A DNA stretch of 64,000 nucleotides from Sphaerisporangium rubeum (lineage in GTDB: Bacteria; Actinomycetota; Actinomycetes; Streptosporangiales; Streptosporangiaceae): positions 5,386,501 to 5,450,500 of the forward strand of contig NZ_JACHIU010000001.1 of the NCBI RefSeq assembly GCF_014207705.1. The letters are read 5' to 3'. A program made the position numbers and the translations under genes. Shown here in pieces: positions 22,362 through 27,668 of the stretch. The stretch's first letter is position 1. The number at the start of each line of letters is the position of its first letter. Under the pieces are notes generated by a model that saw nothing but the letters and a program-made list of their open reading frames with translations, made no database searches and was not told the origin of the DNA.

Positions 22362-23180
22362 TCACAGCAGGCGGAGCAGCGCGGCGGTCAGCCGGTCGGC
22401 CGAGCCCGGCGCGTGGGCCAGGTAGAGGTACGGCTCCACCAGCTCCAGCTCGATCACCGCCGGAGCGCCGTCCGGCAGGCGCACGAGGTCCACGCGCGCG
22501 TACAACGGGGGCCGCGCCACGGTGGCGAGGACCCGCGCGGCCAGGGCGAGCTGGTCGGCGTCAGGGTCGCGTGGCGATGTGCCGAGGTGTCTTCCCTCCG
22601 GCGCGACGGGGGTGAGCATGGGGGTACGGCGGCGCGCGTGGCTGAACTCGCCGCCGAAGTAGACCAGGGAGATCTCTCCCTCTGCCTCGACCATCGGCAG
22701 GTACGGCTGGACCATCGCCACCCGGCCCGCCGCGTTCAGCAGGCGGACGTGCCGCGCCGCCGTGTCGCGGCCGGCGGTGCGGATCGTGTCGCGGGCCCCG
22801 GCGGACACCGAAGGCTTGACGACGTACTCGGCGTGGTCCGGCAGCTCCACCGGCTCGCCTGGCCCGATCCACGCGGTGGGGACGGTCGGCACGCCGAGGT
22901 CGCGCAGGTAGGACTTGTCGGAGTTGCGGTCGAGCAGCGCCGCCGGGTTGAGCAGCCGCGTCACGCTCTCCGCCTCGCGGGCCCACGCCACGAACGCGTC
23001 ACGGCGGTAGACGTAGTCCCACGTCGAGCGCACCACCGCGGCGTCGAAACGCTCCCAGGCCACGGCGGGGTCGTCCCAGCGGACGGCCCGGCCGTCGATC
23101 CCGGCCCGTGACCAGGCCTCCAGCAGGACCGGCCGGTCGTCGTCCGGACCGTCGTAGGTGACATACGCGACCTTCAGCAC
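22362..23180 (-). CDS. ATP-grasp domain protein
   Basis: ATP-dependent carboxylate-amine/thiol ligase type. The N-terminal preATP-grasp part carries VVRSTWDYVYRRDAFVAW (residues about 49-66), typical of the RimK/DcsG-like group. The ATP-binding part has YVVKPSVSAGARDT and VQPYLPMVEAEGEISLVYF, and the metal-binding end is VIELELVEPYLYL, in which the usual Asn after Glu is replaced (E-L-E-L-V-E-P). 272 aa. The GTG at 23180 has GGGAGAG a few nt upstream; the longer frame is not supported. It is a single gene; no peptide or antibiotic biosynthesis gene lies next to it, so the substrate is unknown. Confidence 0.82.
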   Translation of the reverse strand: MLKVAYVTYDGPDDDRPVLLEAWSRAGIDGRAVRWDDPAVAWERFDAAVVRSTWDYVYRRDAFVAWAREAESVTRLLNPAALLDRNSDKSYLRDLGVPTVPTAWIGPGEPVELPDHAEYVVKPSVSAGARDTIRTAGRDTAARHVRLLNAAGRVAMVQPYLPMVEAEGEISLVYFGGEFSHARRRTPMLTPVAPEGRHLGTSPRDPDADQLALAARVLATVARPPLYARVDLVRLPDGAPAVIELELVEPYLYLAHAPGSADRLTAALLRLL

Positions 23181-23727: not shown

Positions 23728-24636
23728 TCACCTGGTGCCGTACACCGGTTCGGCGATCGGGGCCTCGGCGATGAGCTTCGCGACCGCCACCCCCGCCTCC
23801 TCTGGACGCCACCGGGCTCCCTTGTCCACACCGGGACCGTGCCGCCAGCCGGTGGCCAGCGAGATCATGCCGCCTTCCAGCTCGAACACCCGTCCCGTCA
23901 CGTGCGCGGACTCCCGCGACCCCAGCCAGACGACGAGCGGGGCGACGTTCGCGGGGTCCATGACGTCGAACCCCGTCTCAGGCGGCGCCACCATGTCGGC
24001 GAACGCCTCCTCGGTGATACGGGTGCGCGCGGCCGGCGCGATCGCGTTGACCGTCACCCCGTACCGGCCGAGCTCGGCCGCGGCCGTGTGGGTGAGCGCG
24101 ACGATCCCCGCCTTCGCGGCGGCGTAGTTGCCCTGGCCGACGCTGCCGAGCAGCCCGGCGCCGGACGAGGTGTTGATCACCCGTGCGTCCACCGGGTCGC
24201 CGGCCTTGAAGCGCTCACGCCAGTACGCGGCGGCGTGCCGCAACGGCAGGAAGTGACCTTTGAGGTGGACCCGCACCACGTCGTCCCACTCGTCCTCGGT
24301 CATCGAGACGATCATGCGGTCCCTGACGTACCCCGCGTTGTTCACCAGCACGTCGAGACCGCCGAAGGCGCTCACGGCCGTCTTGACCAGCCGCGCCGCG
24401 CCGTCCCAGTCGGCCACGTCGTCGTGGTGCGCGACCGCCTCGCCGCCGAGGTCCCTGATCTCCTCGACCACCTCACGTGCGGGCTCCCCCGACCGGCCGC
24501 CGCCGTGGGGCCCGGTCCCGAGGTCGTTCACCACCACCTTGGCACCGTGACGCGCGAACTCCAGTGCGTGTGCCCGTCCGATCCCCCGGCCCGCTCCGGT
24601 CACCACGACGATCCGCCCCGCACAGATACCGCTCAT
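23728..24636 (-). CDS. SDR oxidoreductase, 3-hydroxyacyl-CoA dehydrogenase type
   Basis: NAD(P)-dependent short-chain dehydrogenase. TGAGRGIG at residues 13-20 binds the cofactor, LVNNAG follows at 97-102, and the catalytic Ser158, Tyr171 and Lys175 (YAAAK) are all present. At 302 aa it is longer than classic SDRs and resembles the group near steroid and lipid catabolic genes in mycobacteria (for example the Rv3548c type, from memory of that family). AAGAGGAA precedes the ATG by 6-7 nt. A 16-bp dyad and a GAAAGTTTCC site lie 30-60 bp upstream, so the gene is likely repressor-controlled. A KstR2-like regulator lies 3 kb away. Confidence 0.88.
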   Translation of the reverse strand: MSGICAGRIVVVTGAGRGIGRAHALEFARHGAKVVVNDLGTGPHGGGRSGEPAREVVEEIRDLGGEAVAHHDDVADWDGAARLVKTAVSAFGGLDVLVNNAGYVRDRMIVSMTEDEWDDVVRVHLKGHFLPLRHAAAYWRERFKAGDPVDARVINTSSGAGLLGSVGQGNYAAAKAGIVALTHTAAAELGRYGVTVNAIAPAARTRITEEAFADMVAPPETGFDVMDPANVAPLVVWLGSRESAHVTGRVFELEGGMISLATGWRHGPGVDKGARWRPEEAGVAVAKLIAEAPIAEPVYGTR

Positions 24637-24763: not shown

Positions 24764-26266
24764 TCAGGACCCGTCGAGAAGACCGGCCAGGACCTCCGCC
24801 GCGGCCTGGCCGCACACGCGGGCCGCGCCGTGGGTGGCGATGTGCACGGCGCCGAGGTCGGTGCGGCCCGGCAGGCCCATCTCCACGACGGCGGCGTCCG
24901 GCCGCGCGGCGAGCAGGCGGTCCAGCGCGCCGGCCAGCCAGGGGACCCGGTGCGCGTCCCTGACGACGATCACCAGCGGCCGGCCCGCGGCGGGGACGAG
25001 CGCGTCCCCGGCCGCGGCGGGGCCGAGCGCCGTCCAGTCGTCCTCCTCGAAGCGCGCGACCGAGGTGCCCGGCAGCAGCTTGGCGAGCGGCTCCCCCACT
25101 CCCCACGGTGTGTGCCGGTCGATGGCCAGGTTCATCACCGGCGCCAGCTCCACCACGTACGGCGCGACGCCACCCGGCGGGACGTCCCATCGCCGCCGGG
25201 TCACCCGTACGGCCCGCCGCGCCGCGACGAGCCCGAGCGACCGGCCGGGGACGGCCGTCGTGCGCGCCGCCTCGGCCCAGGCGGTCAGCTCCGCCGTGCG
25301 GCGGGCCGCGTCGGTCAGCCGCTCCTCGGTGAGCAGTCCCTCGGTGACCGCGTCGGCGACGGCCTCGCGGATGGCGACCACCACGTCCTCCCCCGCGTGC
25401 TCCCCGCCGACGCACACCAGGTCGGCCCCCGCCGCAACGGCGCGCGCGCTCGCCCCGCCGATGCCGTACCGGCCGGCCACCGCGGCCATCTCGATCGCGT
25501 CGGTGACGACGACGCCGCCGAAGCCCATCTCGTCGCGCAGCAACCCGGTCAGCACCGCGCGGCTCAGCGTGGCCGGCATGCCGGGATCGCAGGCCGCGAC
25601 CAGCAGGTGGCCCGTCATGATCATGCGCACGTCCGCCTCGACCGCCGCGCGGAACGGCCGCAGCTCCACCTCGCGCAGCCGTTCGGGGCTCGCCGGCAAC
25701 GTGGGGAGACCGTGGTGAGAGTCGATGCCGGTGTCGCCGTGTCCGGGGAAGTGCTTGGCGCACGCCGCGACCCCCGCCGCCTGGAGCCCCCGCACCCAGG
25801 CGGCGGTGTGCCGCGACACCAGCACGGGATCCGCGCCGAAGGACCGCAACCCGATCACCGGGTTGCGGGGATTGCTGTTGACGTCGGCGGACGGCGCGAA
25901 GTCGACGTTCACCCCGAGTGCCGCGAGGTCGGCGCCGAGCCCGCGCGCGATCTCCTCGGTGAGCGCGACGTCGTCCACCACGCCGAGCGCGTAGTTGCCC
26001 GGCCGTGAACTGCCGGTGCGGGCCTCGAGGCGGCTCACGTCACCGGTCTCCTCGTCCACGCCGATGACGGCGTCCGGCCGCTCGGCGCGCAGCGCGGCCG
26101 TCAGCTCGGTGACCTGTCCCGGGTCCGAGATGTTGCGGGAGAACAGCACCGCACCGGCGAGCCCCTCCCCGAGACGGCGGCGCAGCCACTCAGGCGGCGT
26201 CTCACCTTCGAACCCCGGCAACAGGACCGAATCGGCTAGACGCAGAAGCTCGGGGCTGCGCTTCAT
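24764..26266 (-). CDS. nagZ: Glycoside hydrolase family 3 beta-N-acetylhexosaminidase (NagZ type)
   Basis: Removes terminal N-acetylglucosamine, probably from peptidoglycan fragments. The GH3 loop KHFPGHGDTGIDSHHGLP (171-188) holds the catalytic His/Asp dyad typical of NagZ, and the nucleophile Asp256 lies in VVVTDAIEM. The C-terminal 150 residues form an extra domain that resembles the GH3 C-domain, so at 500 aa it is longer than the single-domain E. coli enzyme. No signal peptide is seen, so it is cytosolic unless the start is wrong. GAGGAGAG precedes the ATG at 26266. A perfect 19-bp palindrome lies about 60 bp upstream. No other cell-wall recycling gene is adjacent. Confidence 0.9.
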   Translation of the reverse strand: MKRSPELLRLADSVLLPGFEGETPPEWLRRRLGEGLAGAVLFSRNISDPGQVTELTAALRAERPDAVIGVDEETGDVSRLEARTGSSRPGNYALGVVDDVALTEEIARGLGADLAALGVNVDFAPSADVNSNPRNPVIGLRSFGADPVLVSRHTAAWVRGLQAAGVAACAKHFPGHGDTGIDSHHGLPTLPASPERLREVELRPFRAAVEADVRMIMTGHLLVAACDPGMPATLSRAVLTGLLRDEMGFGGVVVTDAIEMAAVAGRYGIGGASARAVAAGADLVCVGGEHAGEDVVVAIREAVADAVTEGLLTEERLTDAARRTAELTAWAEAARTTAVPGRSLGLVAARRAVRVTRRRWDVPPGGVAPYVVELAPVMNLAIDRHTPWGVGEPLAKLLPGTSVARFEEDDWTALGPAAAGDALVPAAGRPLVIVVRDAHRVPWLAGALDRLLAARPDAAVVEMGLPGRTDLGAVHIATHGAARVCGQAAAEVLAGLLDGS

Positions 26267-26384: not shown

Positions 26385-27512
26385 TCACAGCCGCTCGATG
26401 ATGGTGACGGCCGCCTGGTCGAGTCCTGTGGACACCACCTGCAGGCCGTACCGGCCGTCCACGCGCTCCAGCTCGTGCAGCAGCGAGGTCAGCAGCCGCG
26501 CGCCGTGCGCGCCGAGCGGACGGCCGAGCGCGAGCGCGCCGCCGGAGGGGTTGACCCGCCGGGGATCGGCCCTGGTCTCCAGCAGCCACGCCATCGCGAG
26601 CGGCGCGTACGCCTCGTCGGCCTCCACGACGTCGATGTCGTCGAGCGTCAGCCCCGCGGCGCGCAGCGCGCGCACGGTGGCCGGGATCGGCGCGGCGAAC
26701 GGCGCGGCGGGATCGCCGCCTCGTGCGGACATGTGACGCAGCCGGGCCCTGGCGGTCAGCCCGTGCTCGCGCACCGCCTCCCGCGAGGCGATCATCACGA
26801 CCGCGGCGGCGTCGGCCGGCGGGGCCGTGAGCGCGGCCGTGGTGCGATCACCCTCACGGCGCGGCGCCACGGCCGCCAGCTTCTCGGCGGTGACGTCGCG
26901 GCGCGGCACCTCGTCCGACCGCATCCCGAGCGCAGGCACGATCTCGCGCGCGAAGCGGCCCTCGTCGGTGGCGGCGACCGCTCTGCGGTGCGACTCGATG
27001 AGGTACTCCTCCATGTCGCCCCTGGACAGTTCCCAGCGCCGCGCGACCAGCTCGGCGGCGCGCCACTCGGAGGTGTCCTTGCCGCGGTACCTGGCGGCCC
27101 AGCCCCTGGAGCCCGCGGCCGGCGAGGGCTCGTCCGTCCCCGCCGGGACGGCGCTCATGTTCTGCACGCCTCCGGCCACCACCAGGTGCGCGTCGCCGGC
27201 GCGCACCGCCTCGGCGGCGAAGCGCACCGCGCGCGAACCCGAACCCGCGCCGTGGTCCACGGTCACGCCGGGTACCGCCTCGGGTAACCCCGCCGCCAGC
27301 CAGGCGACGCGCGCGACGTTCCCGGCGCGCGGGCCCGCGGTGTCCGCGCCGCCGAGCACGACCTCGTCCACGGCCGCGGGATCGGCACCGGTACGATCCA
27401 TCAGCGCGCGCAGCACGTGGGCCGCGAGGTCGGCCGGGTGCACGGCCGAAAGCCCGCCGCCACGCCGGCCGGTGGGGGTGCGCACCGCGCCGACGATGTA
27501 CGCGTCCGTCAT
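26385..27512 (-). CDS. Thiolase-fold protein lacking the catalytic residues
   Basis: Overall a thiolase of the acetyl-CoA acetyltransferase kind (375 aa; starts YIVGAVRTPTGRRGGG; NPSGGALALG near the end). The catalytic positions are changed: the nucleophile Cys is Ala89 (HGAGSGSRA instead of the usual xxCGSGxQA), the active-site His is Arg331 (GRPLGAHGAR instead of GHPxGxxGxR), the NEAF motif reads DEAYA (299-303), and the final Cys is Ser361 (VVSTGLDQ). The gene is otherwise intact, so it is probably not a recent pseudogene. It may be a structural or regulatory partner, or have a new activity. GGAAGG precedes the start; a GTG one codon upstream is possible. It is divergent from the KstR2-like TetR and shares its operator region. 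Confidence 0.85.
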   Translation of the reverse strand: MTDAYIVGAVRTPTGRRGGGLSAVHPADLAAHVLRALMDRTGADPAAVDEVVLGGADTAGPRAGNVARVAWLAAGLPEAVPGVTVDHGAGSGSRAVRFAAEAVRAGDAHLVVAGGVQNMSAVPAGTDEPSPAAGSRGWAARYRGKDTSEWRAAELVARRWELSRGDMEEYLIESHRRAVAATDEGRFAREIVPALGMRSDEVPRRDVTAEKLAAVAPRREGDRTTAALTAPPADAAAVVMIASREAVREHGLTARARLRHMSARGGDPAAPFAAPIPATVRALRAAGLTLDDIDVVEADEAYAPLAMAWLLETRADPRRVNPSGGALALGRPLGAHGARLLTSLLHELERVDGRYGLQVVSTGLDQAAVTIIERL

Positions 27513-27579: not shown

Positions 27580-27593
27580 AACAAGCGCTTGGT
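27580..27593. promoter_or_regulatory. KstR2-type operator in thiolase/TetR divergent promoter
   Basis: AACAAGCGCTTGGT matches the published mycobacterial/rhodococcal KstR2 motif AnCAAGnnCTTGnT at every fixed position. It lies 68 bp before the thiolase-like start and 76 bp before the TetR start. A degenerate second copy, AACAAGCGATTGCG (27643-27656), sits just upstream of the TetR ribosome site. Confidence 0.8.
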
Positions 27594-27668
27594 AGCCTCT
27601 GATCCCGGGGATGAGCTGCCGCCTCTTCCCCGTCAACAGGCGAACAAGCGATTGCGTGGAGGCTCATA

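Follow-up and report, generated by a model that had tools for sequence, protein, structure and literature searches.

Within a 64,000-nucleotide stretch of the Sphaerisporangium rubeum genome (the window), we identified an intact gene predicted from its sequence to encode a degenerate thiolase of the FadA6 type, from the steroid C/D-ring (HIP) pathway, in which the catalytic residues have been replaced; purifying selection nevertheless acts on the coding sequence, which is not simply decaying. Loss of catalytic residues combined with purifying selection on the coding sequence defines a pseudoenzyme, and both were found here. With moderate confidence, we propose that a FadA6-type enzyme has lost its partners and its catalysis, and that its scaffold has been kept by purifying selection for a non-catalytic job. 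FadA6 is the beta-ketoacyl-CoA thiolase of the KstR2 regulon acting in HIP catabolism (Rv3556c in Mycobacterium tuberculosis), and to call the genes described below acetyl-CoA acetyltransferases, for example, would mislabel them.

An intact thiolase gene without catalytic residues

The gene is a single unbroken frame of 375 codons and a stop (Table 1), and both Thiolase_N and Thiolase_C of Pfam are accommodated over the full length of its product. At the catalytic positions the protein reads VDHGA(89)GSGS in the Cys loop, D(299)EAYA at the equivalent of NEAF, GR(331)PLG at GHP and VVS(361)TGLD at CxGGG. Among the features of a competent thiolase the full-length domains are present, and Cys89, the Asn, the His and the C-terminal Cys are all missing. 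The preliminary description of this DNA had reported Ala89, Arg331, Ser361 and DEAYA in a full-length gene with thiolase fold signatures, lying under a KstR2-type operator and close to an SDR; translation and alignment bear out every replacement, the domains run end to end, and both the operator and the SDR, which is of PRK07791 type with a YAAAK motif, proved to be real. The best curated family (NCBIfam) was PRK07801, for which the window thiolase scores 479 bits, below the equivalog cut-off of 591, and canonical relatives score 676-694. The protein is 60-65% identical to canonical FadA6-type members of the same GTDB family, and the host genome also possesses a canonical relative (C1:1407423-1408562) with 55% identity to it. 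A search of PHROGs gave no match.

Table 1. Features of the thiolase locus, in window coordinates.
Feature	Position	Strand	Remarks
SDR of PRK07791 type	23728..24636	-	YAAAK catalytic motif kept; possibly same operon
GH3-family glycosidase, beta-N-acetylhexosaminidase-like	24764..26266	-	Next gene downstream of thiolase; possibly same operon
Putative pseudo-thiolase, degenerate FadA6-type, 375 aa	26385..27512	-	Thiolase_N and Thiolase_C over whole length
Codon 361, C-terminal Cys of CxGGG to Ser	26430..26432	-	Alignment
Codon 331, His of GHP to Arg	26520..26522	-	Alignment
Codon 299, Asn of NEAF to Asp	26616..26618	-	Alignment; Asp in 5/5 dead genes
Codon 89, nucleophile Cys to Ala	27246..27248	-	Alignment
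Predicted KstR2-type operator AACAAGCGCTTGGT	27580..27593	.	68 bp upstream of thiolase start; 89 to 76 bp before TetR start
Second, imperfect operator-like site AACAAGCGATTGCG	27643..27656	+	At -26 of TetR
Divergent TetR regulator, KstR2-like, 240 aa	27669..28391	+	PDB KstR2 4w1u/4w97 among best matches

Dead and canonical thiolases within the genus

Comparison of 11 genomes (G000, the host, to G010) of the soil actinomycete genus Sphaerisporangium identified intact dead thiolase genes of 371-380 codons in five (G000, G002, G006, G007 and G009), canonical copies in three (G003, G008 and G010), and neither a canonical FadA6 nor a dead version in the other three. The four sister dead genes are 59-61% identical to the window gene, and when 343 genomes of the GTDB family were searched with a profile built from the five dead sequences, the same five ranked top, above all canonical ones. 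Cys, Asn, His and Cys occupy the four catalytic positions in 145 of 153 aligned loci, a set representing the fetched part of the family matches, with two dead-gene species and some of the canonical genes entered twice; the replacements at these positions are therefore not attributable to chance. The exceptions comprise the five Sphaerisporangium genes (two fetched twice) and one His-to-Pro case. The latter, locus L084 of another genus (G072:C10:96607-97755), is a canonical FadA6-type thiolase in which the catalytic His is the sole change (GPPLG), possibly representing a separate early inactivation or a sequencing error.

The orthologues do not keep the Ala, Arg and Ser of the window protein. 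The four sister genes have Ala or Gly at position 89, His or Asp at position 331 and Gly or Ala at position 361, and the frame is unbroken in all five species, which together with the differing replacements rules out a sequencing error or mis-called frame. The check for orthologues restoring Cys and His found canonical catalytic residues in the sister species that keep the pathway. The preliminary description had spoken of a conserved dead paralogue; the dead thiolase is indeed conserved and no recent pseudogene, but it is a lineage-specific version of FadA6 at the original locus and no side paralogue.

Purifying selection on the dead genes

Using codon models (our own script, GY94 type, F3x4), we estimated ω at 0.049 on active branches vs 0.132 in the dead clade (about 0.12-0.13), a gain of 30 lnL over a single ratio, and fixing ω = 1 for the dead clade was 233 lnL worse. 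On an alternative tree ω = 1 was likewise rejected for the dead lineages (ΔlnL 38, 25 and 96). Neighbouring genes of the same genomes (ω of 0.057 for TetR, 0.074 for GH3 and 0.046 for SDR) show no relaxation comparable to the 2.4- to 3.6-fold higher ω of the dead thiolase lineages over the active ones. On the stem branch of the dead clade ω is near 1 (2ΔlnL 6.3), an estimate that presupposes one common inactivation. The close pair G007/G009 also gives ω of about 0.1: its thiolase genes differ at 28 codons synonymously and at 19 in the amino acid, whereas neutral evolution at the base-specific rates of four-fold sites in this region would give ~167 amino-acid changes. The resulting ratio of observed to expected amino-acid change, 0.11, compares with 0.06 for SDR, 0.08 for TetR and 0.15 for GH3. 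As high G+C makes stop codons rare, open frames alone are weak evidence, and the argument rests on these rate tests; codon models on two trees and the G007/G009 count rule out a neutral pseudogene.

A selected gene may nonetheless be on its way out, the pathway having been lost and the thiolase left under weakened constraint, as would apply to those relatives (G005, G001 and G004) that have already lost it. We regard this as unlikely, if the most serious of the rival readings. The faster evolution of the dead lineages, replacements that differ by lineage, the disappearance of the thiolase from three genus members, and a drift of the first two codon positions towards G+C (0.80/0.57-0.61 in dead thiolases vs about 0.72/0.52), itself indicative of constraint relaxing under G+C pressure, are all consistent with it. 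Conversely, five frames have stayed intact over long branches, ω = 1 was rejected on the dead lineages tested, and the constraint measured in G007/G009 resembles that of neighbouring genes.

Whether inactivation occurred once or several times differs with the data used. The tree from all columns groups the five dead genes in one clade (support 99/98), whereas removal of active-site columns dissolves the clade without rejecting it (AU p 0.09); with all codons, a three-origin tree is 73 lnL worse. In a tree of six housekeeping proteins G000 pairs with G002 (96/96 on DNA) and G006 joins G007 and G009; a clade of the five is neither recovered nor rejected (AU p 0.23). Owing to its long branches, the thiolase tree alone is untrustworthy.

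Loss of a pathway marker and variation at the locus

As a marker of the HIP pathway we searched the 11 genomes for IpdA alone, with the G010 protein as query. Strong matches were found in G003, G008 and G010, exactly the genomes with canonical FadA6, and no match in any of the five dead-thiolase genomes, the host included. The thiolase gene of G008 and G010 sits among homologues of IpdA, IpdB and IpdC, accompanied in G008 by an EchA20-like gene and SDRs; the family names around these two thiolases are partly our own assignment from a published KstR2-regulon table (PMC5380842). The presence of the pathway cannot be read from an operator plus one pathway gene.

At the window locus the thiolase, GH3 and SDR genes may be co-transcribed. 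We take the SDR to be Rv3548c-like. The GH3 gene lies between thiolase and SDR, and occurs near the thiolase in active (G008 and G010) and dead genomes alike. Other genus members vary in what they retain: G005 keeps SDR, GH3 and TetR and lacks the thiolase, G001 and G004 keep TetR alone, and G003 keeps SDR and TetR, with its canonical thiolase elsewhere in the genome. Since G005, G001 and G004 are without the thiolase, its role is dispensable within the genus. Further along the window, the product of 22362-23180 (minus strand) gave a sub-cut-off match to DcsG, a D-cycloserine synthetase (230 vs 360 bits), and homologues of it occur close to the TetR locus in several genomes of the genus.

The TetR regulator and its operator

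The predicted operator AACAAGCGCTTGGT fits the published KstR2 consensus AnCAAGnnCTTGnT (PMC3068626) exactly and stands beside a KstR2-like TetR, the arrangement sought as a mark of the KstR2 regulon. The TetR gene was found in all 11 genomes, with 79-89% identity between the window copy and each of the other ten, and nine of the 11 carry the operator in the corresponding position with no more than one mismatch. A site resembling AACAAGCGATTGCG just before the TetR start is recognisable by eye in most of them. A KstR family search gave a sub-cut-off match in every genome. G003 possesses two KstR2-like regulators: L127 (G003:C2), the 240-aa genus form beside an SDR, and L037 (G003:C50), a shorter regulator beside canonical FadA6 and HIP genes that is 39% identical to the window TetR.

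The adjoining regulator and operator would suit a protein that senses acyl-CoA or HIP-CoA by binding it and acts on the divergent TetR or on other partners, and a catalytically silent thiolase-like protein, MsTLP1, does bind CoA weakly (Kd 0.6 mM; PMC3406046). However, TetR and operator persist in G003, where the locus holds no thiolase, and, with one mismatch, in G001, so that the operator is no evidence for the thiolase, and the case that it regulates the thiolase is weakened. Its survival would be explained by autoregulation of the TetR.

Changes across the fold and the active site

We identified 232 positions conserved in 36 active relatives, of which 130 are unchanged in every member of the dead set. 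Three or more of the dead proteins have lost the conserved residue at 30/72 active-site and substrate-loop positions vs 16/160 elsewhere (Fisher p 8e-8), an enrichment that may be favoured by the choice of the active-site set, which comprises known thiolase motif and loop segments with their neighbours and was drawn up with the alignment in view. From active to dead lineages ω rises from 0.036 to 0.129 in active-site segments and from 0.051 to 0.123 outside them; constraint on the protein has therefore eased along its whole length, with the greatest change at the active site, and losses confined to the pocket are ruled out. Conserved residues of the substrate and CoA loops (117-150, 231-233, 271-277 and 331-336) have been lost, and these loops differ between species. 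Only four residues, E50, N65, D299 and L327, combine invariance among the dead proteins with rarity among active ones. An AlphaFold2 model built with 36 sequences (pLDDT 91.2, pTM 0.92) matched PDB thiolases in Foldseek at a TM of about 0.9; guided as it is by active relatives, the prediction is compatible with a thiolase fold and no proof of folding.

These patterns bear on two functions offered by the preliminary description, a CoA-ester sensor and a different reaction, both of which are weakened by the degradation of substrate-binding positions alongside the catalytic ones and in a different way in each lineage. The loss of loop residues that would hold a ligand leaves sensing of a CoA ester improbable. 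A remodelled active site catalysing a different reaction, of the kind known from Ltp2 and Sal, aldolases with a thiolase fold, we consider slightly more improbable still: thiolase folds have changed chemistry before (PMC12329534), and Asp replaces Asn299 in all five dead proteins, but apart from Asp299 no new residue is common at catalytic positions, and the Ltp2/Sal motif YDHF/YDCY is absent. Both readings are the weaker because no new set of pocket residues is conserved.

A proposed non-catalytic role for the retained scaffold

For the origin of the putative pseudo-thiolase, we envisage that in part of the genus Sphaerisporangium a FadA6-type thiolase would have lost its pathway partners, as tested for IpdA, and in the same genomes its catalytic residues, while purifying selection would have retained the folded protein for a task in which its scaffold matters and its chemistry does not. 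This task may be protein-protein interaction, in which a non-catalytic dimer or tetramer of thiolase fold, alone or mixed with active thiolases of the cell, would act as a partner protein and might serve the SDR and GH3 proteins encoded in the same run of genes. We infer such a partner role, with a probably oligomeric and inactive protein, to be the most likely, since what survives is the scaffold, whereas the positions for catalysis and substrate have decayed with no new pattern in common. More tentatively, the pathway enzyme may have been stripped of its chemistry after loss of the pathway and captured as a non-catalytic part of a leftover TetR-thiolase-GH3-SDR locus. Pseudoenzymes are usually recognised long after their origin. 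If our reading is correct, these genomes would hold a natural record of the birth of one, with a series within one genus from enzyme with pathway, through dead but selected protein, to deleted gene, and with a retained inactive enzyme directly comparable with its active sister.

Comparison with known systems

FadA6 itself is the best family match, and the pathway-bearing sisters G008 and G010 carry it at the same locus with a KstR2-type operator. The window gene differs from it in lacking the catalytic residues, in its score (479 vs 591 bits) and in the absence of IpdA from its genome; additionally, the covering-loop region is shortened in four of the five dead proteins. KS-beta, the chain-length factor of type II polyketide synthases, is a Cys-less protein illustrating an idea relevant to the present case: a copy without activity is retained as the partner of an active enzyme. 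The same idea applies to BbsCD of toluene degradation, an SDR described as having a pseudoenzyme subunit where it is cited in PMC10818641; BbsCD is no thiolase, however, and the partner of the window protein is putative.

Among thiolase-fold proteins, TLP1 of Mycobacterium smegmatis likewise lacks the catalytic Cys and has no detectable thiolase activity, but has YSCF as its motif and a further domain at the C terminus (PMC3406046), whereas the window protein has DEAYA and its thiolase domains fill the 375 aa. Ltp2 and Sal, aldolases of steroid catabolism, resemble it in combining a thiolase fold with catalytic residues differing from those of thiolases (PMC12329534). They differ from it in having YDHF/YDCY at the position of DEAYA, and a DUF35 partner of the Ltp2/Sal kind was not found among the neighbouring genes of the locus scanned with Pfam.
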